64,000 nucleotides of DNA from Blastococcus haudaquaticus (GTDB lineage Bacteria; Actinomycetota; Actinomycetes; Mycobacteriales; Geodermatophilaceae), in contig NZ_OCNK01000002.1 in NCBI RefSeq assembly GCF_900230285.1, forward strand, positions 124,001 to 188,000, written 5' to 3'. This document shows positions 3,347 through 24,881 of the stretch, in pieces; the first letter of the stretch is position 1, and every line of letters begins with the position of its first letter. The notes under the pieces are model-generated. The model made no database searches. It had not been told where the DNA came from and was given only the letters and a program-made list of their open reading frames with translations. The position numbers and the translations under genes were made by a program.

Positions 3347-5125
3347 CTACAGGTACTGGCCGGTGTTCGTCGCCGTGTCGATCGCGCGGCCGGACTCGTT
3401 GCCCTTGCCGCTGATGAGCGTGCGGATGTACACGATCCGCTCGCCCTTCTTGCCCGAGATCCGCGCCCAGTCGTCGGGGTTGGTCGTGTTGGGCAGGTCC
3501 TCGTTCTCCTTGAACTCGTCGAGGCAGGCGGCCGTCAGGTGGCTCACCCGCAGACCGGACGTGCCGGTCTCCAGGTGCTCCTTGATCGCCATCTTCTTCG
3601 CCCGGTCGACGATGTTCTGCAGCATGGCGCCGGAGTTGAAATCCTTGAAGTACAGGACCTCCTTGTCACCGTTGGCGTAGGTGACCTCGAGGAAGCGGTT
3701 CTCCTCGCTCTCGGTGTACATGCGCTCGACGGTGCGCTGGATCATCCCGGCGATCGTCGCCTCACGGCTGCCGCCGTGCTCGGCGAGGTCGTCCGGGCTG
3801 ATCGGCAGCGTCGTCGTCAGGTACTTGCTGAAGATGTCGCGCGCGGCCTCCGCGTCCGGACGCTCGATCTTGATCTTCACGTCCAGCCGGCCGGGCCGGA
3901 GGATCGCCGGGTCGATCATGTCCTCGCGGTTGGAGGCACCGATGACGATGACGTTCTCCAGGCCCTCGACGCCGTCGATCTCGCTCAGCAGCTGCGGCAC
4001 GATCGTCGACTCGACGTCGGAGGACACCCCCGATCCACGGGTGCGGAAGATCGAGTCCATCTCGTCGAAGAACACGATGACCGGCGTGCCCTCGCTGGCC
4101 TTCTCCCGCGCCCGCTGGAAGACCAGGCGGATGTGCCGCTCGGTCTCGCCGACGTACTTGTTCAGCAGCTCCGGGCCCTTGATGTTGAGGAAGTAGGACT
4201 TCCCCTGGCTCGTGTCGCCGTCGCCGCGGATCGCCGCGACCTTCTTGGCCAGCGAGTTCGCGACCGCCTTCGCGATCAGCGTCTTGCCGCACCCGGGCGG
4301 CCCGTACAGCAGGATGCCCTTGGGCGGGCGCAGCTCGTAGGTGCGGAACAGGTCGGCGTGCAGGAACGGCAGTTCCACGGCGTCGCGGATCTGCTCGATC
4401 TGCCGCGACAGGCCACCGATGTCGCTGTAGTCGATGTCGGGGACCTCTTCGAGGACGAGCTCCTCGACCTCGCTCTTCGGGATCCGCTCGTAGACGTAGC
4501 CCGACCGCGACTCCAGCAGCAGCGAGTCGCCGACGCGCAGCGGCTGGCCGGTCAGCGAGTCGGCGAGGAAGACCACGCGCTCCTCGTCGGTGTGCCCGAT
4601 GACCAGCGCGCGCGGCGTCACGCCGTCGACGGGCTCGAGCAGCTCCTTGAGCATGACGACGTCGCCGGCGCGCTCGAAGTCGCGCGCCTCGACGACGTTC
4701 ATCGCCTCGTTGAGCATGACCTCCTGGCCGGTGCGCAGGCTCTCGACCTCGACGTTCGGCGAGACCGACACCCTGAGCTTGCGCCCACCCGTGAACACGT
4801 CGACGGTGCCGTCGTCGAAGCGGGTGAGGAAGACCCCGTAGCCCGACGGCGGCTGGCCGAGCCGGTCGACCTCTTCCTTGAGGGAGACCAGCTGCTCGCG
4901 GGCGTCACGCAGGGTGCCCGCCAGCTTGTCGTTGCGCTCGGACAGGAACGCCGCACGCCCCTCGGCCTCGGCGATCCGCTCCTCCAGCAGGCGCACCTGC
5001 CGCGGGCTGTCGGCCACCTTCCGGCGGAGGAGGCCGATCTCTTCCTCGAGGTAGGAGATCTGGCTGAGCAGTGCCGCGACGTCTCGTTCACGCCGCGCTC
5101 GAATCTCGTCGGGACCCAGACTCAT
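3347..5125 (-). CDS. arc: Proteasome-activating AAA ATPase ARC/Mpa
   Basis: A 592-residue ring ATPase that recognises pupylated proteins, unfolds them and threads them into the 20S proteasome. Residues 1-90 are a heptad-rich coiled coil (the Pup-binding part), about 95-240 are the tandem OB domains, and the AAA module follows with Walker A GPPGCGKT near 275 and Walker B V-F-F-D-E-M-D near 345. The chain ends in G-Q-Y-L, the C-terminal motif that docks into the proteasome alpha ring. The start at 5125 is set by GGAGGT 5 bases upstream; readings starting further upstream run into trmI. In mycobacteria the gene is called mpa. Here it is separated from dop by the two rightward genes at 2520-3280. 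Confidence 0.96.
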
Positions 5126-5163
5126 CGCGCACCTCCACACACTCCGAGGGAGTTCAAGACGCA

Positions 5164-5169
5164 AATCTA
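5164..5169 (-). promoter_or_regulatory. Candidate -10 element of arc
   Basis: TAGATT on the minus strand fits the TANNNT pattern. It lies in the only A/T-rich patch of the 118-base trmI-arc gap, about 40 bases before the arc start. I see no convincing -35 element. Confidence 0.3.
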
Positions 5170-5243
5170 TACACGCGACCGGACACTTCGCCGTGGGCTC
5201 GCGGGAGGCCGTGACCGGCCTGTCACACGAACCCGTGCGGGGC

Positions 5244-6224
<981 letters not shown>

Positions 6225-6238
6225 CTAGCCTCGGGTGC

Positions 6239-7195
6239 ATGACGGCGATCCTGCACACGGAACCGGCTGCCGAGGTCACTGCTGACGAGGTCTCCGCGGA
6301 GACGGTCGACGACGCCGCGACCGCCCCCCGCCGCCCGTCGCTGTCCCCGAGCCGCGCGGCCGACTTCAAGACGTGCCCGCTGCTCTACCGCTTCCGCACC
6401 ATCGACCGGCTGCCCGAGCGCAAGAGCCTCGCCGCCGTCCGGGGCACCCTCGTGCACTCGGTGCTCGAGCGGCTCTACGACCTCCCGCCGGCCGGCCGCA
6501 CGGTCGAGGCGGCGCAGGAGCTGATCGAGCCGGCCTGGGCCGACCTCCGCGACGAGCCGGGCATCGCCGATCTCTTCCAGGTCGCCCAGGACGACGGCGC
6601 CGAGACCGATCCGAACGCGCCCGAGTCCGTGGAGGCGTGGCTGGCGTCGGCCGGGAAGCTGGTCGAGAAGTACTTCGCCCTGGAGGACCCGACCCGCATC
6701 CAGCCGGAGGGGCGCGAGCAGCTGGTCGAGGTGACCCTGCCCGACGGCCTGCTGCTGCGCGGATACGTCGACCGCGTCGACGTGGCGCCCAACGGCGCCC
6801 TGCGGGTCGTGGACTACAAGACCGGCTCCATGCCTCGCGAGGCATTCGAGGCCAAGGCGCTGTTCCAGATGAAGTTCTACGCGCTGGTCCTCTGGCGCAC
6901 CCGCGGTGTCGTGGCCGCCCAGCTGAAGCTCATCTACCTGGGCGACGGCGACACGCTCACCTACGCGCCCGACGAGGCCGAGCTGGTCCGCTTCGAGCGC
7001 ACGTTGCTGGCCATCTGGGCGGCGATCGAGCGGGCGGTGTCCACCGGCGACTTCCGCCCGAACAAGACCCGGCTCTGCGGGTGGTGCGACCACCAGGCGG
7101 TCTGCCCCGAGTGGGGTGGCACTCCCCCGCCGTTCCCGGCCGAGGCCGCTGCCGCCGCGGGCTGGCAGACGCTGCCGATCGTCGAGCGCGACTGA
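6239..7195 (+). CDS. RecB-family PD-(D/E)XK exonuclease-like protein
   Basis: A 318-residue stand-alone nuclease domain (Cas4/AddB-like). The chosen ATG lacks a strong ribosome site; a reading 17 codons longer is less likely because it enters the divergent promoter region. Residues 35-52 read S-L-S-P-S-R-A-A-D-F-K-T-C-P, then R-G-T-L-V-H-S-V-L-E near 68. The nuclease core is V-V-D-Y-K-T-G near 190, with Q-M-K-F-Y-A-L near 208. Four cysteines (one near 46, and CGWC plus C near 280-289) match the iron-sulfur ligands of this family. Role in DNA repair or processing is inferred. It is divergent from trmI and recurs beside the arc locus in actinobacteria. Confidence 0.88.
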   Translation: MTAILHTEPAAEVTADEVSAETVDDAATAPRRPSLSPSRAADFKTCPLLYRFRTIDRLPERKSLAAVRGTLVHSVLERLYDLPPAGRTVEAAQELIEPAWADLRDEPGIADLFQVAQDDGAETDPNAPESVEAWLASAGKLVEKYFALEDPTRIQPEGREQLVEVTLPDGLLLRGYVDRVDVAPNGALRVVDYKTGSMPREAFEAKALFQMKFYALVLWRTRGVVAAQLKLIYLGDGDTLTYAPDEAELVRFERTLLAIWAAIERAVSTGDFRPNKTRLCGWCDHQAVCPEWGGTPPPFPAEAAAAAGWQTLPIVERD

Positions 7196-7198
7196 CCG

Positions 7199-7975
7199 TC
7201 AGCCGAGGGTGGCAGTACGGGCGTCCACGTCGCGGTAGGCGGTGGCACTCGGGGCCGGCCGGCCGGCCCGCAACCGGCGGACGACGCCGACCGCCTCGTC
7301 GAGGGCGGCACGGAACAGCAGCGAACCGGTGCTGATCCGGCGCACGCCGAGCTCGGCCAGACGCGGCACGGTGTGCTGCGGCGTCGCGAGGACGTTGACC
7401 GGCACCGGGAGGGCACCGGTCAGCTCGCGGACCTGGGCCTCGGTGAGCGGGCCGGGGACGAACACGCCGTCGGCGCCGGCGTCCACGTAGCGCAGCGCGC
7501 GACCGACCGTCGCCTCCGCCGAGGCGCGTTCGCCGAGCCAGAACGTGTCCACCCGCGCGTTGACGAAGACGTCCGGGCACCGCTCCTTGACCGCTGCCAC
7601 CTTGGCGGCATGGGCAGCGGGGGCCACCAGCTTCCCGGCGGAGCTGTCCTCCAGGTTGAGGCCGGCGACCGGCAGCGCCGCGACCAGGTCGGCGACCTGC
7701 CCCGGGTCGTCGGAGAAGCCGTCCTCCAGGTCGACGGTCACCGGGACGGGAAGGCCGGCGAGCCGGTGCGCCAGGTCGATCGTCAGCGAGCGGACGGCCC
7801 GAGTGGCGTCCGCCCGTCCGGCGGCGGCGGCGATCCCCAGGCTGGTGGTGCCCACCGCGGGGGCTCCGTCGGCCACGAACGCCAGCGCCGACGCGACGTC
7901 CCAGGCGTTCGGCAGCAGCAACGGACCGGGGCCGGCGTGGAGGTCGCGGAACACCCGAGCGTGAGCGGGCGTCAT
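7199..7975 (-). CDS. Isocitrate lyase/PEP mutase family protein
   Basis: A 258-residue single-domain TIM-barrel protein. The stretch L-P-N-A-W-D-V-A-S near 21, G-T-T-S-L-G near 42, the metal-binding D-L-E-D-G near 82 and a late G-V-F-V-P-G near 165 are family marks. The Cys of true isocitrate lyases and the carboxyphosphonoenolpyruvate mutase signature are not evident, so this belongs to the broad oxaloacetate decarboxylase/2,3-dimethylmalate lyase-like group; the substrate is unknown. The ATG at 7975 overlaps the stop of the upstream P450-like gene (ATGA), so they are translated together. Confidence 0.85.
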   Translation of the reverse strand: MTPAHARVFRDLHAGPGPLLLPNAWDVASALAFVADGAPAVGTTSLGIAAAAGRADATRAVRSLTIDLAHRLAGLPVPVTVDLEDGFSDDPGQVADLVAALPVAGLNLEDSSAGKLVAPAAHAAKVAAVKERCPDVFVNARVDTFWLGERASAEATVGRALRYVDAGADGVFVPGPLTEAQVRELTGALPVPVNVLATPQHTVPRLAELGVRRISTGSLLFRAALDEAVGVVRRLRAGRPAPSATAYRDVDARTATLG

Positions 7976-8547
7976 CGGGTCACTGCCCGGGTCAGGTCCC
8001 TGGCGATCGCCTCGCCCGGGCAGGCATGGCGCCCCCGGCCGAACGGGGCGTCGGACAGGTCGACCTCGACGAGGGCACCGTCCGGACCCACCCTGCGGGT
8101 GGTCGGTACCGGTGGCGCCGTCGATCCTCGACGGAGGTTGCTGACCAGGGCCGCCGTCGCGGCGTGCGCCTGGACGAGGACGCAGATCCGGGCCGCGGTC
8201 ATCTCGTCCCGCGACCCGCAGACGGCGACCAGACGGTCGACAGCGGCGTCGGCCGCCGCCGACTGCGGCAGGTGCGGCTGGTAGGCACCGGCCGCGAGGG
8301 CGACGTCCCGGGCGCACTCCGGTGGCAGGCCCATCGCCGCCACCAGCGCTGCGGTCGGGTCCGCCGAGGGCTCCAGCGCCAGGCCGCTCAGGATCTGCTC
8401 GACGAGGGCGCGTCGGCGGGCATGGTCCTCGCCGTCGCTGAATCGCGCCACGTGCCCGCGCAACCAGGCGAGCCCGGTCGGGCCGGCCACCACCGGGGGC
8501 ATCCGGTAGCGCTCGTCGTCGAGGACGGCGGAGGAGAGGAGTTCCAC
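7972..8547 (-). CDS. Miniature cytochrome P450-like protein
   Basis: About 191 residues, less than half of a normal P450 (around 400). The C-terminal part holds a full heme-ligand loop F-G-R-G-R-H-A-C-P-G-E near residue 173. Before it, V-L-V-Q-A-H-A-A-T-A resembles an I-helix, and A-P-P-V-P-T-T-R-R resembles the strand after the K-helix, but the K-helix ExxR itself is not visible, as if an internal piece were lost. The start is uncertain: GTG at 8547 or 8565 are both possible, and longer readings would cross the divergent regulator's promoter. It overlaps the PEP mutase-like gene by 4 bases. Whether it binds heme is open. Confidence 0.65.
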   Translation of the reverse strand: MELLSSAVLDDERYRMPPVVAGPTGLAWLRGHVARFSDGEDHARRRALVEQILSGLALEPSADPTAALVAAMGLPPECARDVALAAGAYQPHLPQSAAADAAVDRLVAVCGSRDEMTAARICVLVQAHAATAALVSNLRRGSTAPPVPTTRRVGPDGALVEVDLSDAPFGRGRHACPGEAIARDLTRAVTR

Positions 8548-17936: not shown

Positions 17937-18977
17937 TCAACCCAACAGCGGCGTCATCTGCGACGTGGCGTCGGCGTCGAAGAGCCGGTCGTGCATGGCC
18001 AGCGCGAAGCGGTCGGTCATCCCCGACACGTAGTCGACGACCTGGGTGACCGCATCGGCCTCGCTGTCCCGGTAGGACGCGGGGATCAGCTCCGGATGTG
18101 CCAGGTGGTGGTCGACCAGCCGGCGGATCACGTCGATGGCGACGTGCTTCTGGCCCGCCGCGGTCTCCGAGGCGTACACGCGCTCGAACATGAACGCCCG
18201 CAGCTCGTGCATCGCCACGAGGGGACCAGGCGCCATCACCACGGCGCCGGCCGTGTTCTCCGGCGACAGCGATCCCTCGACGACGGCGGCGATCATCCTG
18301 CCCACCATCTCGCTGCCCGGTGCGCCGAAGGCGTCACGGGCACCGACCGGCAGGTCTCCCAGCTCGATCACGCCGGCCCGGATCGCGTCCAGCGCATCGT
18401 GGGACAAGTAGCCGATCCGGTCCGCGTAGCGGACGCACTCACCCTCCCGCGTCGACGGCGGCGGGTCGATCTTCCAGCTGTGCGACCGGACCCCGTCGCG
18501 CACCTCCCAGGTCAGGTTGAGGTGCTCGAGCACCTCCACGATCCGCACGCCCTGGGCGGCGTGGTGCCAGCCGCCGGGTACGTAGGGCTCCAGCGCGTCC
18601 TCGCCCAGGTGCCCGAAGGGCGAGTGGCCGACGTCGTGCGCCAGCGCGATCGCCTCGGCGAGCGTCTCGTTGAGGCCCAGCGCCCGGGCCAGCGAGCGCG
18701 CGACCTGGGTGACCTGGAGGGTGTGGGTGAGCCGGGTGACGAAGTGGTCGCCGTCGGGATTCAGGAAGACCTGGGTCTTGTGCTTGAGCCGGCGGAAGGC
18801 CTTGGCGTGCAGGATCCGGTCCCGGTCCCGCTCGAACGCGGTGCGCAACGGGTCCTCGGGTTCGGGCCGGACGCGGCCCCGGCTGGCGACAGCGCGGGTG
18901 GCCGCCGGGGCCAGCTGGTCCTCCGCAGCTTCCCGTGCCGCCCGGTCGGTGAACCGGAAGGGACCGGGTGTGCTCAT
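17937..18977 (-). CDS. dgt: Deoxyguanosinetriphosphate triphosphohydrolase-like protein
   Basis: A 346-residue HD-domain protein of the dNTP triphosphohydrolase type 2 group, which cleaves dNTPs to deoxynucleosides and tripolyphosphate. R-L-T-H near 88, [11 protein letters not shown] near 117 and a later Y-L-S-H-D near 193 give the metal-binding H, HD and D residues. [10 protein letters not shown] near 66 is a conserved nucleotide-contact stretch. The ATG at 18977 overlaps the mshC stop (ATGA), so it is translationally coupled to mshC. It ends in a convergent 112-base gap with PAC2 in which I see no strong terminator. Confidence 0.92.
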
Positions 18978-20227
18978 CCGCAGTCGCCTAGTGCCACACC
19001 GAGCAGGGCGTCGATCGCGTCGCACACGATCCGCGGCGACTCCTCCTCGACGTCGTCCCCGCCGGTCAGGGTGCGGTGCGCCCAGGCGTCGACGAGCGCG
19101 ATCGCGCCCGGGCTGTCGAGGTCGTCGGTGAGACGCTCGCGCATGCCGAGCAAGAGCGGAGCGGCGGGAGCACCGGCGTCGAGCGCGACGGCCCGGCGCC
19201 ACGTGGCGAGCCGTTCCTCCGCGGTCGCGAGGAGGTCCGCCGTCCAGGCACGGTCGGTGCGGTAGTGACCGGACAGCAGGGCCAGCCGGATCGCCATCGG
19301 GTCGACGCCCTCGCCCCGCAGCTTGGAGACGAAGACCAGGTTGCCCCGGCTCTTGCTCATCTTCTCGCCGTCGAGCCCGATCATCGCCGCGTGCACGTAG
19401 GCGCGGGCGAACGGCTTGGTCGCCGTCAGGGCCTCGGCGTGGACCGCGGAGTACTCGTGGTGCGGGAAGACCAGGTCGCTGCCGCCGCCCTGCACGTCGA
19501 AGCCCATGCCGATGGTGTCCAGCGCGATCGTGGCGCACTCGATGTGCCAGCCCGGCCGGCCCGCCGTGCCGGGTGGACCGGGCCAGGACGGCTCGCCGGG
19601 GCGCTCCCCGCGCCACAGCATCGGGTCCAGCGGCTGGCGCTTCCCCGGGCGGTCGGGATCTCCCCCGCGCTCGGCGAAGAAGCCCAGCATCGTCGTCTCG
19701 TCGTACCGGGACTCCCCGCCGAAGCCGGGCGCCTGGGCGACGTCGTGGTAGATGTCGCCGGTGCCGTCGTCCAGCACGTAGGCCAGCCCCTCGGCCAGCA
19801 GGTCCTCGACGTGGGCGACGATGCGCGGGATGGACTCGACCGCGCCGACGTAGTCCTCGGGGGGCAGCACGCGCAGCGCGGTCATGTCCTCGCGGAACAG
19901 GGCCGTCTCGCGCATGGCCAGGACGACCCAGTCCTCGTTGTCGCGGGCGGCACGCTCGAGCAGCGGGTCGTCGATGTCGGTGACGTTCTGGACGTAGTGG
20001 ACCGCGTGGCCGGCGTCGCGCCAGACCCGGTTGACGAGGTCGAACGCCAGGTAGGTGGCGGCGTGCCCGAGGTGGGTGGCGTCGTAGGGCGTGATGCCGC
20101 AGACGTACATCCGGGCGGTGGGACCTGGGCTGGTGGACACCACCTCGCCGCGGGCGGTGTCGTGGACCTTGAGCGCGGGCCCGGTCCCGGGCAGAGTCGG
20201 CAGGAGCGGAGCGGGCCAGGAGAGCAC
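18974..20227 (-). CDS. mshC: Cysteine--1-D-myo-inosityl 2-amino-2-deoxy-alpha-D-glucopyranoside ligase
   Basis: A 417-residue ligase of the mycothiol pathway: it joins cysteine to GlcN-Ins using ATP. It resembles cysteinyl-tRNA synthetase but is shorter, as MshC is. M-Y-V-C-G-I-T-P-Y near 40-48 supplies a zinc Cys and leads into the HIGH-like T-H-L-G-H near 52. W-H-I-E-C near 229 and F-P-H-H-E near 252 complete the zinc site, and K-M-S-K-S near 290 is the ATP loop. The MshC-specific ending is present. It is coupled to the dNTPase gene and divergent from an MDMPI-family gene whose relatives use mycothiol. Confidence 0.96.
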
Positions 20228-21976: not shown

Positions 21977-22726
21977 TCAGAAGGGCGGCCAGGGCAGGGC
22001 GGGCCACTCGCCGCTGGGCTCGGGGTGCCGGCCGGAGCGCAGCAGCTCCGCGACCCGCCGCTGGGTGGCGCGCACCTCGGTGCGGGTCAGGTGCTCGTGC
22101 AGCTCCTCGCCCAGGTCTCCCCGCAGCTCCTCGCCGAGGCGCTCCAGTACCGCCATGGCCTCCTCGGTCAGCCGCTTGGTGGCCCACCGCCACAGCAGGG
22201 TGCGCAGCTTGGGGTCGACGGAGAAGCAGATGCCGTGGTCGACGCCGTAGACGTGGCCGTCCGGCATCGGGATGATGTGCCCGCCCTTGCGGTCGGCGTT
22301 GTTCACCACCGCGTCGAAGACGGCCATGCGGCGCAGTGCGGGGTCGTCACGCCGCACGAACGCCGCCAGGTCGACGTCCTCGTCGCCGTCGATCCACAGC
22401 TGCACCATCCCGGGCCCGAACGGCCCGTCGCGCAGCACCGTGGGCGGGACCACCCGCCAGCCGGTCGCCTCCGACACCAGGTACGCGGAGATCTCCCGGC
22501 CGGCGAGCGTGCCGTCGGGGAAGTCCCAGAGCGGCCGCTCGCCCGCCACGGGCTTGTAGACGCACTCTCCCACCAGCTCGCCGGTGCGGATGGTGCCGAC
22601 CAGCGTCACGTTCGACGCGTCCAGCATCCGGCCCTCGAGGTCGATGACGCCGTCGCGCAGCAGCTGCCGCGCCTCGTCGTCGTCCGCCGGGGGCCGCAGG
22701 TCCGGCTCGACCGGTTGCTCGCTCAT
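21977..22726 (-). CDS. SCO1664-family protein, atypical kinase-like fold
   Basis: A 249-residue protein of the actinobacterial SCO1664 family. Visible marks are C-V-Y-K-P near 56 (a possible ATP-contact Lys), F-D-A-V-V-N-N-A-D-R-K-G-G-H near 138-151 and G-V-D-H-G near 161-165. The order Lys, then N-x-D-x-K-x-G-H, then D-H-G resembles the lysine, catalytic loop and DFG-like motif of phosphatidylinositol 3/4-kinase-type and HipA-type kinases. The activity is not established. It follows the DUF3090 gene by 13 bases in a conserved group with a histidine phosphatase and uppP. Confidence 0.82.
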   Translation of the reverse strand: MSEQPVEPDLRPPADDDEARQLLRDGVIDLEGRMLDASNVTLVGTIRTGELVGECVYKPVAGERPLWDFPDGTLAGREISAYLVSEATGWRVVPPTVLRDGPFGPGMVQLWIDGDEDVDLAAFVRRDDPALRRMAVFDAVVNNADRKGGHIIPMPDGHVYGVDHGICFSVDPKLRTLLWRWATKRLTEEAMAVLERLGEELRGDLGEELHEHLTRTEVRATQRRVAELLRSGRHPEPSGEWPALPWPPF

Positions 22727-22739
22727 GGGGAGCCGCCGG

Positions 22740-23291
22740 TCAGCGGCGGTAGCCGTTCTGCCGAGGGCAGACGTGCCCGGCCGGGTCCAGCGGGAGGGAG
22801 CACAGCGGGCACGGGGGCCGGCCGGCGGCGATGACGCGCCGCGCGCGGGCGACGAACGCACGGGCGGCGACCGGGGTGATGGTCACGCGCAGGGCGTCGG
22901 GACCCTCGTCGCTGTCGGAGAGGATGGCCTCCTCGTCGATGGGCTCCTCCCCCGCGGCGACGGCCTCCACGACCACCGCCTCGGCCGAGCCGTCCCAGGC
23001 CAGCCCCATGGCGGCGACCCGGAACTCCTCGTCGACGGGAGCGGTGAGCGGCTCGAGGTCGTCGACCTCGGCCGCTTCGGGGATCACCGTGCTCGCGCGG
23101 CCGGCGACCTCGTCCAGCAGCTCGTTCATGCGGTCGGCGAGGACCTGCACCTGGTTCTTCTCCAGGGCGACGCTGACCGTGCGACCGGTCTCGTCGGAGG
23201 CCTGCAGGTAGAAGGTGCGGTCGCCGGGCTGGCCCACGGTGCCGGCGACGAAACGGCTCGGACGCTCGAAGAGATGGACCTGACGGGGCAC
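22740..23291 (-). CDS. DUF3090 family protein
   Basis: A 183-residue protein. The N-terminus (V-H-L-F-E-R-P-S-R-F-V-A-G-T-V-G) and Y-L-Q-A near 28 are the DUF3090 signature. The chain ends in a small cysteine cluster C-P-L-C near 160 and a further C near 174 followed by a basic tail, which could bind zinc. No function is known. It is always near the SCO1664-family gene in actinobacteria, which suggests a joint role. It lies 50 bases downstream of the histidine phosphatase gene and 13 bases upstream of the SCO1664-family gene. Confidence 0.88.
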   Translation of the reverse strand: MPRQVHLFERPSRFVAGTVGQPGDRTFYLQASDETGRTVSVALEKNQVQVLADRMNELLDEVAGRASTVIPEAAEVDDLEPLTAPVDEEFRVAAMGLAWDGSAEAVVVEAVAAGEEPIDEEAILSDSDEGPDALRVTITPVAARAFVARARRVIAAGRPPCPLCSLPLDPAGHVCPRQNGYRR

Positions 23292-23341
23292 GCGACCAGG
23301 TTACGCGGGCCGGGTGACGGCCGGCCGCGACGACACCGAGG

Positions 23342-24040
23342 TCAGACCGTCGTGCCTGCGCCGCCCCCGACGACTGCGTCCGAGGACGCCTTGCCGCGGC
23401 GCCGCTTGCGGGGCGGCGGGATGAGCGCGGAGACGTCGCCGCCGGTGTCGTTCATCCGCACGACGAAGGGACGCGTGTCGGTGTACGTGACGACCGAGAT
23501 CGAGGCCGGGTCGACGACGATGCGCTGGAACTGGTCGAGGTGCAGGCCGAGCGCGTCGGCCAGGATCGCCTTGATCACATCGCCGTGGCTGCAGGCCAGC
23601 CAGACGGCGTCGGGGCCCAGCCGGGCGTTCCAGCTGCGGATCGCCGACACGGCGCGGGCCTGGGTCTGGGCCAGCCCCTCCCCCTCCGGTCCCGGGAAGA
23701 CGGCGGCCGAGGGGTGCTGCTGGACGACCTTCCAGAGCGGTTCCTTGGCCAGCTCCTTGATCGTCCGGCCGGTCCAGTCGCCGTAGCGCGCCTCGCCGAG
23801 CCGGTCGTCGGGCTCGACGGTGAGGTCGCGCCCCGCGACCACGGCCGCCGAGGTCTGCCGGCAGCGCTCCAGCGGGCTGCTCACGACGGCGGCGAGCGGC
23901 ACCTTCGCCAGCCGCTCCGCCGCCGCGGTGACCTGAGCCGTGCCCGTCTCGTCGAGCTGCACACCCGGGGTCCAGCCGGCCAGGACGCCACCGGTGTTGG
24001 CCGTCGTCCGGCCGTGCCGGAGCAGGATCACGGTGGTCAC
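23342..24040 (-). CDS. Histidine phosphatase family protein (MSMEG_4193-type)
   Basis: A 232-residue member of the histidine phosphatase/phosphoglycerate mutase superfamily. The catalytic L-R-H-G-R-T near 7-12, S-S-P-L-E-R-C near 54-60 and the second His in S-H-G-D near 153 are all present, so a working phosphatase is expected. The C-terminal 30 residues are a basic, Gly/Ala-rich tail (P-P-R-K-R-R-R-G). It starts with GTG 10 bases after uppP ends, in the same leftward group as DUF3090 and the SCO1664-family gene. The substrate is unknown. Confidence 0.9.
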   Translation of the reverse strand: MTTVILLRHGRTTANTGGVLAGWTPGVQLDETGTAQVTAAAERLAKVPLAAVVSSPLERCRQTSAAVVAGRDLTVEPDDRLGEARYGDWTGRTIKELAKEPLWKVVQQHPSAAVFPGPEGEGLAQTQARAVSAIRSWNARLGPDAVWLACSHGDVIKAILADALGLHLDQFQRIVVDPASISVVTYTDTRPFVVRMNDTGGDVSALIPPPRKRRRGKASSDAVVGGGAGTTV

Positions 24041-24050
24041 AGGCAGGAGC

Positions 24051-24881
24051 CTAGGTCGGGTCGAGCACCCCGGCGCCGACCAGGGCGAGGACGGTCAGCC
24101 CGAGCACGATCCGGTAGACGACGAACGGGGTGAAGCTGCCCCGGTCCAGGTAGCGCAGCAGCCAGGCGATGACCGTGAGGCCGACAGCGAACCCGATGAC
24201 CGTGGCCAGGATCGTCGGCCCCCAGGCGACGCCCTGGCCGGCGACGTCGCCGGTGAGCGCCTCGTACGCCTGGAAGACGCCGGAGCCCAGGACGGCGGGG
24301 ATGGCGAGCAGGAACGAGTAGCGGGCCGCCGCCGCCCGGGAGTAGCCGAGGAAGAGCCCGGCGGTGATCGTCCCGCCGGAGCGCGAGACGCCGGGGATCA
24401 GCGCCATCGCCTGCGCGAACCCGAAGCCGATGCCGTGCGGGACGGTGAGGTCGGCGAGCTCCCGCTGCTTCGCCCCGACCCGGTCGGCCCAGAACAGGAT
24501 CAGCGAGAACAGGACGAGGCAGATCGCCACGATCCGCAGGTCGCGCAGCGTCGTCTCGATGTCGTCCTGGAAGAGCAGCCCGAGGACGACGATCGGGATG
24601 CTGCCGACGATGATCAGCCAGCCCATCCGGGCGTCGGGGTCGCCCTTCCGCCGGCCGGCCAGCGATCCCAGCCAGGCGACGATGATCCGCCCGATGTCCT
24701 TCCGGAAGTACAGGAGGACCGCGGCCTCGGTGCCGATCTGGATGATCGCGGTGAAGGCGGCGCCGGGGTCCTCCCAGCCGAACAGCTCGCCGACCAGGCG
24801 CAGGTGGGCGCTGGAGGAGATCGGCAGGAACTCGGTCAGCCCCTGCACCACGCCCAGGACCACGGCCTCGATCCAGCTCAT
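24051..24881 (-). CDS. uppP: Undecaprenyl-diphosphatase
   Basis: A 276-residue polytopic membrane enzyme (BacA/UppP family) that recycles undecaprenyl pyrophosphate to the phosphate for cell-wall synthesis and gives bacitracin tolerance. [15 protein letters not shown] near residues 13-27 and G-V-S-R-S-G-G-T near 166-173 are the two active-site motifs. Several transmembrane helices follow at normal spacing. ATG at 24881 begins MSWIEA. It heads the uppP-phosphatase-DUF3090-SCO1664 group. Confidence 0.95.

Follow-up and report, generated by a model that had tools for sequence, protein, structure and literature searches.

A conserved gene trio of a PI4-kinase-like SCO1664 protein, DUF3090 and a histidine phosphatase as a candidate reversible-phosphorylation module

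The window analysed here is a stretch of 64,000 nucleotides from Blastococcus haudaquaticus (contig NZ_OCNK01000002.1), in which four minus-strand genes are arranged head to tail. They encode the undecaprenyl-diphosphate phosphatase UppP, a histidine phosphatase, a DUF3090 protein and an SCO1664-family protein, and all exceed the NCBIfam curated cut-offs (Table 1). Our analysis indicated that the last three genes (the trio) may form a reversible-phosphorylation module, with the SCO1664-family protein as writer, the phosphatase as eraser and DUF3090 as adaptor, a reading to which we give an even chance. SCO1664 would be a soluble ATP-dependent kinase of the type II phosphatidylinositol 4-kinase (PI4K-II)/FAM20 branch that phosphorylates a single dedicated substrate. 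The operon's histidine phosphatase would take the same phosphate off, and DUF3090 would be a metal-stabilised adaptor holding the phosphatase and/or the substrate. The evidence is computed and comprises the family assignments, a predicted kinase fold, invariant catalytic residues, gene order, co-occurrence and another phosphatase class in five loci. A previous sequence-only reading had described the same four-gene cluster, with an intact phosphatase active site and a possible zinc knuckle in DUF3090; all four genes were found in place with family profiles over cut-off. That observation was confirmed and is stronger than first stated. The grouping goes beyond chance: across 193 kinase and 169 phosphatase homologues the core residues vary little or not at all, and the gene order was kept in 141 of 141 loci with the complete trio.

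Kinase fold and active site of the SCO1664 family

The AlphaFold2 model of the SCO1664-family protein (hereafter the kinase), built with 78 aligned sequences, reached a predicted local distance difference test score (pLDDT) of 93.0 and a predicted template modelling score (pTM) of 0.90. Its predicted fold is a kinase fold nearest to the type II PI4-kinases. The best matches were human PI4K-II alpha and beta (Foldseek E 2.8e-8; VIA-align Z 17.7-19.2 over 219-223 of 249 residues, 3.4-3.8 A, 17-18% identity), followed in order of Z by FAM20 (13.7-15.8), CtkA (13.6-14.4), HipA (10.7-11.2), PI4K-III beta (9.8) and RIO (9.4); structure entries 4kqa/4kqb we take to be FAM20 and 3dnv to be HipA. The comparison with PI4K and HipA that the sequence-only reading had proposed gave a kinase fold with higher Z for PI4K-II than for HipA. 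When the family profile was run against PDB sequences, PI4K-II beta was the best match (E 1.3e-5) and PI4K-II alpha gave 1.1e-3. Of 78 family members, 66 matched the PI3/PI4 kinase family PF00454 with E values up to 0.01, the lowest being 3.4e-10, and 3 matched HipA_2; the window kinase itself missed the PF00454 gathering score (22.4-22.8 bits vs 27.1).

K58, E78, D145, R146, K147, H150 and D163 were invariant in 193 of 193 homologues, 16 of which came from unlinked Chloroflexota loci; in this alignment rows below length limits were excluded and near-identical rows retained. Because the Lys, the Glu, both Asp and the loop are invariant, the kinase looks active, with one unusual fixed active-site residue, the His. 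The loop DRKxxH was present in all 194 kinases, window included, and DRGNDN in none of them. In the hidden Markov model (HMM) alignment to PI4K-II beta, H150 aligned with the last Asn of DRGNDN, which binds metal in PI4K-II. By regular expression, the DFG-equivalent of the 194 kinases was DHG in 137 and DNG in 40, with 8 unmatched. The kinase-like motifs of the sequence-only reading were thus present, as Lys58, the loop D145-R-K-G-G-H150, in which His replaces the usual Asn, and D163-H-G165. The motif CCPCC, the palmitoylation motif of type II PI4-kinases, was found in 0 of 194 kinases. The kinases are acidic (median isoelectric point, pI, 5.0), and strongly hydrophobic stretches occurred in 1 of 194 kinases, 0 of 193 DUF3090 proteins and 6 of 170 phosphatases.

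The family therefore resembles PI4K2A and PI4K2B in fold, in PDB profile match and in keeping the catalytic Asp and DxG. However, it is bacterial, carries DRKxxH instead of DRGNDN and has no CCPCC, and a lipid substrate is known for PI4K-II only. FAM20, CtkA and HipA were matched by the same model, but with Z below PI4K-II, and SCO1664 differs from them in adjoining phosphatase and DUF3090 genes. The TIGRFAM authors reportedly had already grouped the three families as a trio and noted a likeness to PI kinases.

Gene order and taxonomic range of the trio

We surveyed co-occurrence in 246 genomes sampled evenly from the window's phylum, Actinomycetota (the phylum sample), with C. glutamicum as control genome; the genomes sampled in this study are phylogenetically non-independent. 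TIGR03843 (kinase) and TIGR03847 (DUF3090) each matched 107 of the 246 genomes, and both matched in 106. The kinase-only genome, G174, holds a distant relative at 18.9 bits, and G172, the genome with DUF3090 only, has a contig that stops 5 bases past the DUF3090 match. TIGR03848 (phosphatase) matched 228 of 246 genomes, 81 of them over cut-off, the broad matching presumably arising from cross-matching histidine phosphatases. Gene order was examined in 161 loci, namely the window, 80 loci from the phylum sample (from 78 of the 107 TIGR03843-matching genomes, plus G172) and 80 loci from named genomes (the best 80 of 590 relatives); the locus HMMs were trained on the very loci searched, and their E-values are partly so by construction. 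All three genes were present in 141 loci, and the order phosphatase-DUF3090-kinase on one strand was kept in every one of them. The same order was found in 9 of 9 further Chloroflexota loci with the complete trio and in 5 of 6 later class Actinomycetes loci. The co-occurrence that the sequence-only reading had asked about is thus strong, though not strict (106 of 246 genomes; 141 of 161 loci). Nor did we meet any of the outcomes that reading had named as refuting it, which were a fold without a nucleotide pocket, loss of the Lys/Asp residues and absence of co-occurrence.

The named loci include Acidimicrobiales, Arthrobacter, Kocuria, Citricoccus and, in Chloroflexota, Bellilinea, Thermoflexus and an Oscillochloris bin. 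Six loci (L125, L130, L135, L139, L173 and L176) were labelled Bifidobacterium breve, Rokuibacteriota or Acidobacteria; their kinases sit among actinobacterial tree rows and the labels may be wrong. The kinase was present in 140 of 148 class Actinomycetes genomes. In one family (f86), the kinase and DUF3090 were found in all 9 hand-picked genomes of 1.2-1.4 Mb, and phosphatase-DUF3090-kinase-mshC was intact in 4 of 4 fetched loci (L250, L251, L252, L257), which suggests that the trio has a core role in that lineage. In Chloroflexota, the phylum of Bellilinea, we sampled 101 genomes and found the kinase in 55 (53 over cut-off), DUF3090 in 65 (35 over cut-off) and both in 51. Of 58 loci fetched there, partly picked for unlinked genes, 9 held the full trio, 2 DUF3090 and kinase, 1 these two about 6 kb apart, 28 DUF3090 only, 17 the kinase only and 1 the phosphatase and DUF3090 near a contig end. 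Separation of the genes is mostly found in this phylum.

The 20 incomplete loci among the 161 comprised 12 that lacked only DUF3090, 3 that lacked only the phosphatase, 3 with the kinase alone, 1 with phosphatase and DUF3090 at a contig edge and 1 with the distant relative (L109, in G174), which was left out of the counts. Contig edges lie at L171 (DUF3090 and kinase) and at L125 and L160 (kinase alone), and at L151, also with the kinase alone, DUF3090 is elsewhere in the genome. L109 (7818-8363) gave 9e-20 with the locus HMM, has neither DUF3090 in the genome nor the phosphatase nearby, and could be another branch of the kinase family.

Several observations weigh against a three-gene phosphorylation module. 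The three genes can come apart: DUF3090 is missing from 12 loci that carry the phosphatase and the kinase. In three of these, Kocuria (L150), Citricoccus (L170) and Propioniciclava (L177), the whole genome lacks it, and in the fourth case checked, an Arthrobacter locus, it lies elsewhere in the genome. Control C. glutamicum matched TIGR03843 and not TIGR03847. Four loci (L157, L166, L220, L228) have DUF3090 and kinase without the phosphatase, and in G369 DUF3090 is on a separate contig (L254/L255). L249 (G422, 5001-8392) reads uppP-phosphatase-DUF3090-mshC, the kinase alone being lost and absent elsewhere in the genome, and L253 (G471, 3923-7937), the later full-trio locus that deviates in order, has kinase and mshC inverted relative to uppP-phosphatase-DUF3090. 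Of the 101 Chloroflexota genomes, 14 have DUF3090 but no kinase and 4 the kinase but no DUF3090 (two of them weak). In the phylum sample the trio is absent from many small genomes of other classes that are similar in size to those of f86. In 23 of the 28 DUF3090-only loci neither the His- nor the Cys-phosphatase HMM found a partner, many of these loci having been picked as unlinked. In addition, in the open-licence PMC literature searched we saw no report of kinase activity for SCO1664 or of a function for DUF3090, and the invariant catalytic-loop His could mean other chemistry.

The phosphatase-kinase pairs without DUF3090 (L128 953-6669, L036 and 10 related loci) occur in Arthrobacter, Kocuria, Citricoccus and Propioniciclava, and in L128 an AAA_5 gene and a VWA gene are oriented divergently to the pair. 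These loci group in the kinase tree (2 changes vs 11.7 in shuffles, with one trio row inside the group); by this quick tree the DUF3090-less state is therefore probably one event, spread among Micrococcaceae and Propioniciclava.

When open reading frames of 80 loci were clustered, no cluster besides the three genes and their antisense frames occurred in more than 18 loci, and the clusters were mostly unnamed. With crude longest-frame calling, no recurring kinase or phosphatase appeared near unlinked DUF3090 genes (83 of 89 called neighbours scanned; among the 25 of 84 families listed) or near unlinked kinase genes (40 of 58 neighbours scanned; among the 25 of 50 families listed). In viral contigs, 21 pattern matches gave 0 confirmed cases.

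Table 1. Genes and predicted sites at the trio locus of the window (positions in the window)
Feature	Position	Strand	Evidence	Remark
uppP, undecaprenyl-diphosphate phosphatase	24051-24881	-	NF001392 357.6 bits, cut-off 308; PF02673 281.9 bits, cut-off 33.4	first gene of cluster, outside conserved core
Histidine phosphatase, MSMEG_4193/TIGR03848 family	23342-24040	-	TIGR03848 318.3 bits, cut-off 203.85	eraser candidate
DUF3090/TIGR03847 protein	22740-23291	-	TIGR03847 239.3 bits, cut-off 117.25; PF11290 219.1 bits, cut-off 27, E 4.5e-65	adaptor or substrate-recognition candidate
DUF3090 predicted metal site C161, C164, H173, C175	22767-22811	-	alignment	192 homologues: C161 191, C164 191, H173 178, C175 190
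SCO1664/TIGR03843 protein, type II PI4-kinase/FAM20-like	21977-22726	-	TIGR03843 334.1 bits, cut-off 172.4, profile 1-253 of 253	writer candidate
Kinase Lys58, predicted ATP-binding lysine	22553-22555	-	K in 193/193 homologues	
Kinase catalytic loop D145-R-K-G-G-H150	22277-22294	-	HMM alignment to PI4K-II beta	His at PI4K-II Asn place
Kinase D163-H-G165, DFG-equivalent	22232-22240	-	D in 193/193 homologues	
mshC	18974-20227	-		about 1.7 kb beyond kinase

With the starts of Table 1, the gaps between uppP, phosphatase, DUF3090 and kinase are 10, 50 and 13 bases. The kinase start, an ATG at 22726, is an inferred one: the long frame 21977-22861 was shortened because the TIGR03843 profile begins at residue 68 of that frame. 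Three genes lie between the kinase and mshC, encoding a glyoxalase-like (minus strand), an AHSA1 (minus strand) and an MDMPI-like protein (plus strand).

Phosphatases and DUF3090

The window phosphatase carries RHG and SHGD motifs. Among 169 homologues its core was kept at R8 (168), H9 (168), R59 (169), E83 (162), H152 (169) and the Asp two residues after (D154, 169), so that the active site was rightly described as intact. The phosphatases are mostly basic, with pI above 7 in 123 of 170. In M. tuberculosis, we take Rv2134c to be DUF3090 and Rv2133c to be the kinase. Rv2135c is presumably the orthologue of the trio phosphatase, an assumption that draws on its adjacency to uppP in PMC3866925. 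In that report, Coker et al. described Rv2135c as an acid phosphatase without mutase activity (optimum pH 5.8, Km 10.6 mM for p-nitrophenyl phosphate) and a tetramer in solution. It was less active on phosphoenolpyruvate, glycerol-1-phosphate and fructose-6-phosphate, and inactive on 3-phosphoglycerate, glucose-6-phosphate and ADP (PMC3866925). These poor kinetics suggest that the true substrate lies outside the compounds tried. The earlier statement that no partner has a known function was thus slightly too strong, given this activity in vitro. The M. tuberculosis locus resembles that of the window in having the histidine phosphatase beside a UppP homologue, Rv2136c, but Rv2135c has RHA where the window phosphatase has RHG (PMC3866925).

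A second, unrelated phosphatase was found in Chloroflexota. In five loci (L191, L194, L200, L203, L233) a Cys-type phosphatase follows DUF3090 directly on the same strand, with the loop CMGGVGRT (CxxxxxR) in 5 of 5. The L200 protein, the one scanned for domains, matched PTP-SAK (PF22784, E 7.8e-13); its matches to further dual-specificity families and to PTP-like phytase were weaker. Four of these five genomes (G275, G294, G337, G353) had no TIGR03843 match. As two unrelated phosphatases stand beside DUF3090, we argue that phosphate removal matters. In L191 (1834-8124), L194, L200 and L203, DUF3090 and the Cys phosphatase are downstream of genes for a helix-turn-helix/tetratricopeptide-repeat regulator and LigD (domains scanned in L191, related frames in the others).

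DUF3090 was modelled with pLDDT 89.4 and pTM 0.80 as two beta-rich repeats, each terminated by a helix. The first eleven Foldseek matches were all PUR-alpha (E 4.3e-3 to 8.0e-2), and VIA-align gave Z 9.5-9.9 for PUR-alpha (111-114 residues aligned), 5.3-6.0 for Whirly/MRP and at most 6.7 for the others. The PUR/Whirly-like fold is a moderate match, since according to the tool's note a top Z of 7-8 often arises where no true relationship exists; no PUR family was among the Pfam matches of 45 DUF3090 members at E 0.01. G20, G23, R25 and F27 were invariant in 192 of 192 homologues. The possible zinc knuckle corresponds to a predicted Cys/His site, CPLC...HVC in the window, conserved among homologues; a CxxC..HxC motif was noted before in a passage of PMC9425974. 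Over their last 185 residues the proteins have a median pI of 4.7 and a net charge of -11, and 6 of 193 exceed pI 7; because of this acidity we prefer a protein adaptor over a nucleic-acid binder.

DUF3090 is named among syntenic orphan clusters of Streptomyces in an excerpt of PMC13118837. MSMEG_4192 is probably the DUF3090 gene, judging from its gene number. Entries in published data sets show its insertions over-represented in dibucaine-treated M. smegmatis (1.49, p 0.045; PMC10127668), its product in a ClpC1 interactome table (PMC10433963), and Rv2134c at -1.42 among BCG mutants of altered rifampicin sensitivity (PMC11329110). These weak hints of dibucaine, rifampicin and ClpC1 point to no named pathway.

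Candidate substrates and alternative explanations

For the substrate of the proposed module, a soluble metabolite or cofactor precursor ranks first, with a chance just short of even, and a protein comes second and is somewhat unlikely. Third is an inositol lipid or inositol phosphate, which we consider quite unlikely, and a nucleic acid is last and less probable still. The alternatives built on inositol, nucleic acid or UppP overlap with the phosphorylation module in their odds, because each of them is such a module with a named substrate.

The alternative that survives best is an inositol branch, in which the kinase would act on phosphatidylinositol or an inositol intermediate and, in mycothiol producers, the phosphatase would possibly be MshA2, removing the phosphate of N-acetylglucosamine-inositol-phosphate (GlcNAc-Ins-P). 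We know of no gene identified for MshA2. The name is given to the phosphatase of the mycothiol pathway in passages of PMC4360819 and PMC2628429. A review, in its section on SCO1664, places the gene very near mshC and suggests a place in a mycothiol/inositol network (PMC4255298). Among class Actinomycetes, our results agreed with such a link. Among 10 trio loci of this class, 8 had mshC within 2.2 kb of the kinase and 6 had uppP within 3.5 kb; both genes are present in the window. In 32 hand-picked genomes of the class (G433, 60% complete and without the kinase, was excluded), 25 had kinase, DUF3090 and mshC (one mshC just below cut-off) and 6 had none of them, so that kinase and mshC were jointly present or jointly absent in 31 of 32; the remaining genome, G422, has mshC and DUF3090 without the kinase, the matches lying 74 bases apart (L249). 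Phosphatase-DUF3090-kinase-mshC was contiguous in 5 of 8 fetched mshC loci.

Of the mycothiol genes, mshC alone was tested in the phylum sample. It exceeded the cut-off in 20 of 246 genomes, each of which carries the trio, and MshC-like matches of 323-446 bits occurred in 37 more, 33 with the trio; these proteins may be a separate cysteine ligase family. Such sub-cut-off proteins (e.g. G134:C5:92620-93720) are outside class Actinomycetes and score above most cysteinyl-tRNA synthetase-like matches. However, 54 of 107 trio genomes had no MshC-like match above 320 bits, a threshold of our own, and mshC was found in 0 of the other 150 loci of L031-L190. A strict mycothiol partnership was therefore rejected for the whole family and kept as a local association in class Actinomycetes: the trio is associated with mycothiol in one class, yet broader than mycothiol. 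This differs from the SCO1664-mshC linkage that the review describes for Streptomyces (PMC4255298, same section, where SCO1664 is not assigned as a kinase), in that the trio is also found in genomes without mshC. Of the mshC neighbourhood noted in the sequence-only reading, the gene itself was confirmed in the window, beyond three intervening genes, while the link is clear only inside that class.

The inositol branch can also point to PI4K-II as the best structural match, whose eukaryotic relatives act on phosphatidylinositol, and to inositol-phosphate synthase. PF07994 matched 18 of 74 genomes, a search that left out sixteen genomes first intended, and this proved a false-negative artefact, the control C. 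glutamicum having been missed too; the idea that inositol is excluded by absence of the synthase was dropped. Because of that failed control, the search was repeated with PF01658, which matched 64 of 77 genomes (three class Actinomycetes added), C. glutamicum now among them. PF01658 was found in 40 of 43 kinase-positive vs 21 of 31 kinase-negative genomes (Fisher p 0.011, overstated because the genomes are related). The difference came from Actinomycetota (27 of 29 vs 11 of 21) and was absent in Chloroflexota (13 of 14 with, 10 of 10 without the kinase). Together with the failure of strict mshC co-occurrence, the absence of CCPCC, the near absence of hydrophobic stretches in the kinases and the relatedness of the genomes, this makes the inositol branch improbable.

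A nucleic-acid module, in which DUF3090 would bind single-stranded DNA or RNA and the two enzymes would act on RNA or an RNA-bound protein, like ArkI/KptA or HipA, is less probable again. ArkI/KptA are an archaeal tRNA kinase and phosphatase. The PUR-alpha/Whirly-like model with its Cys/His site fits this explanation, and reversible tRNA phosphorylation exists, as a passage of PMC9095486 describes. The acidity of DUF3090 lowers the odds of generic nucleic-acid binding, though, the Foldseek E was 4.3e-3 at best with no PUR match in Pfam, and HipA was not the top match of the kinase. About as improbable is that the kinase-like protein carries out another nucleotide-dependent reaction, such as the transfer of AMP, which the phosphatase or DUF3090 would undo or sense. 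SelO and SidJ show that a kinase fold can serve a different chemistry, and His stands for the usual Asn in 194 of 194; however, the Lys, Glu and both Asp of working kinases are invariant, and a phosphatase partner fits a phosphate product.

The weakest alternative, proposed in the sequence-only reading and in our view very improbable, has kinase and phosphatase processing a polyprenyl-phosphate wall intermediate: uppP is adjacent in the window, in the 6 class Actinomycetes loci above and in L249 and L253, and PMC3866925 cites Rv2135c as reported in membrane fractions and suggests a possible action like that of the UppP homologue Rv2136c, but the other 150 loci of L031-L190 yielded a single uppP, about 6.8 kb away (by an HMM built from class Actinomycetes-like sequences, in loci many of which are short), and homologues with strongly hydrophobic stretches are few. 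As a core partner uppP was therefore rejected, and its tie to a lipid-linked wall intermediate is not supported. In L254 (G369), two short uppP-like pieces (5755-5973; profile 2-24 and 230-278) lie directly upstream of the phosphatase and resemble what an internal deletion would leave of uppP. Of the phosphorylation/dephosphorylation system proposed earlier, the system itself gained from the kinase fold, the conserved cores and the co-occurrence; the wall-lipid substrate was not supported, and inositol kept a small probability.

For the reversible-phosphorylation module, known enzymes offer an analogy only. PFKFB and PPIP5K combine a kinase with a histidine phosphatase, making and destroying one phosphometabolite. 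The trio shares this pairing, but its enzymes are separate proteins with a different kinase fold and no known metabolite. A wider picture, which we put forward tentatively and hold to be unlikely in its entirety, is that Actinomycetota and many Chloroflexota run an undescribed core cycle, in which a PI4K-II cousin with His at its metal-ligand position would make a phosphometabolite or messenger, a His- or Cys-phosphatase would destroy it and DUF3090 would couple the two, the cycle being wired into the mshC operon in mycothiol producers.

The three families were already known as hypothetical proteins, and SCO1664 appears as an actinobacterial signature protein without assigned function in the relevant section of PMC4255298. 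What is new here is that the predicted fold is PI4K-II-like with a fixed His, that the phosphatase is exchanged in some loci and that the range over two phyla has been measured. This His and this exchange, together with the natural losses of single genes, make the function directly testable in laboratory strains. If the trio does run a phosphorylation cycle, two phyla would share a widespread pathway that is retained in certain genomes of only 1.2-1.4 Mb, and bacteria would have a counterpart to a type of kinase so far met chiefly in the lipid signalling of eukaryotes.

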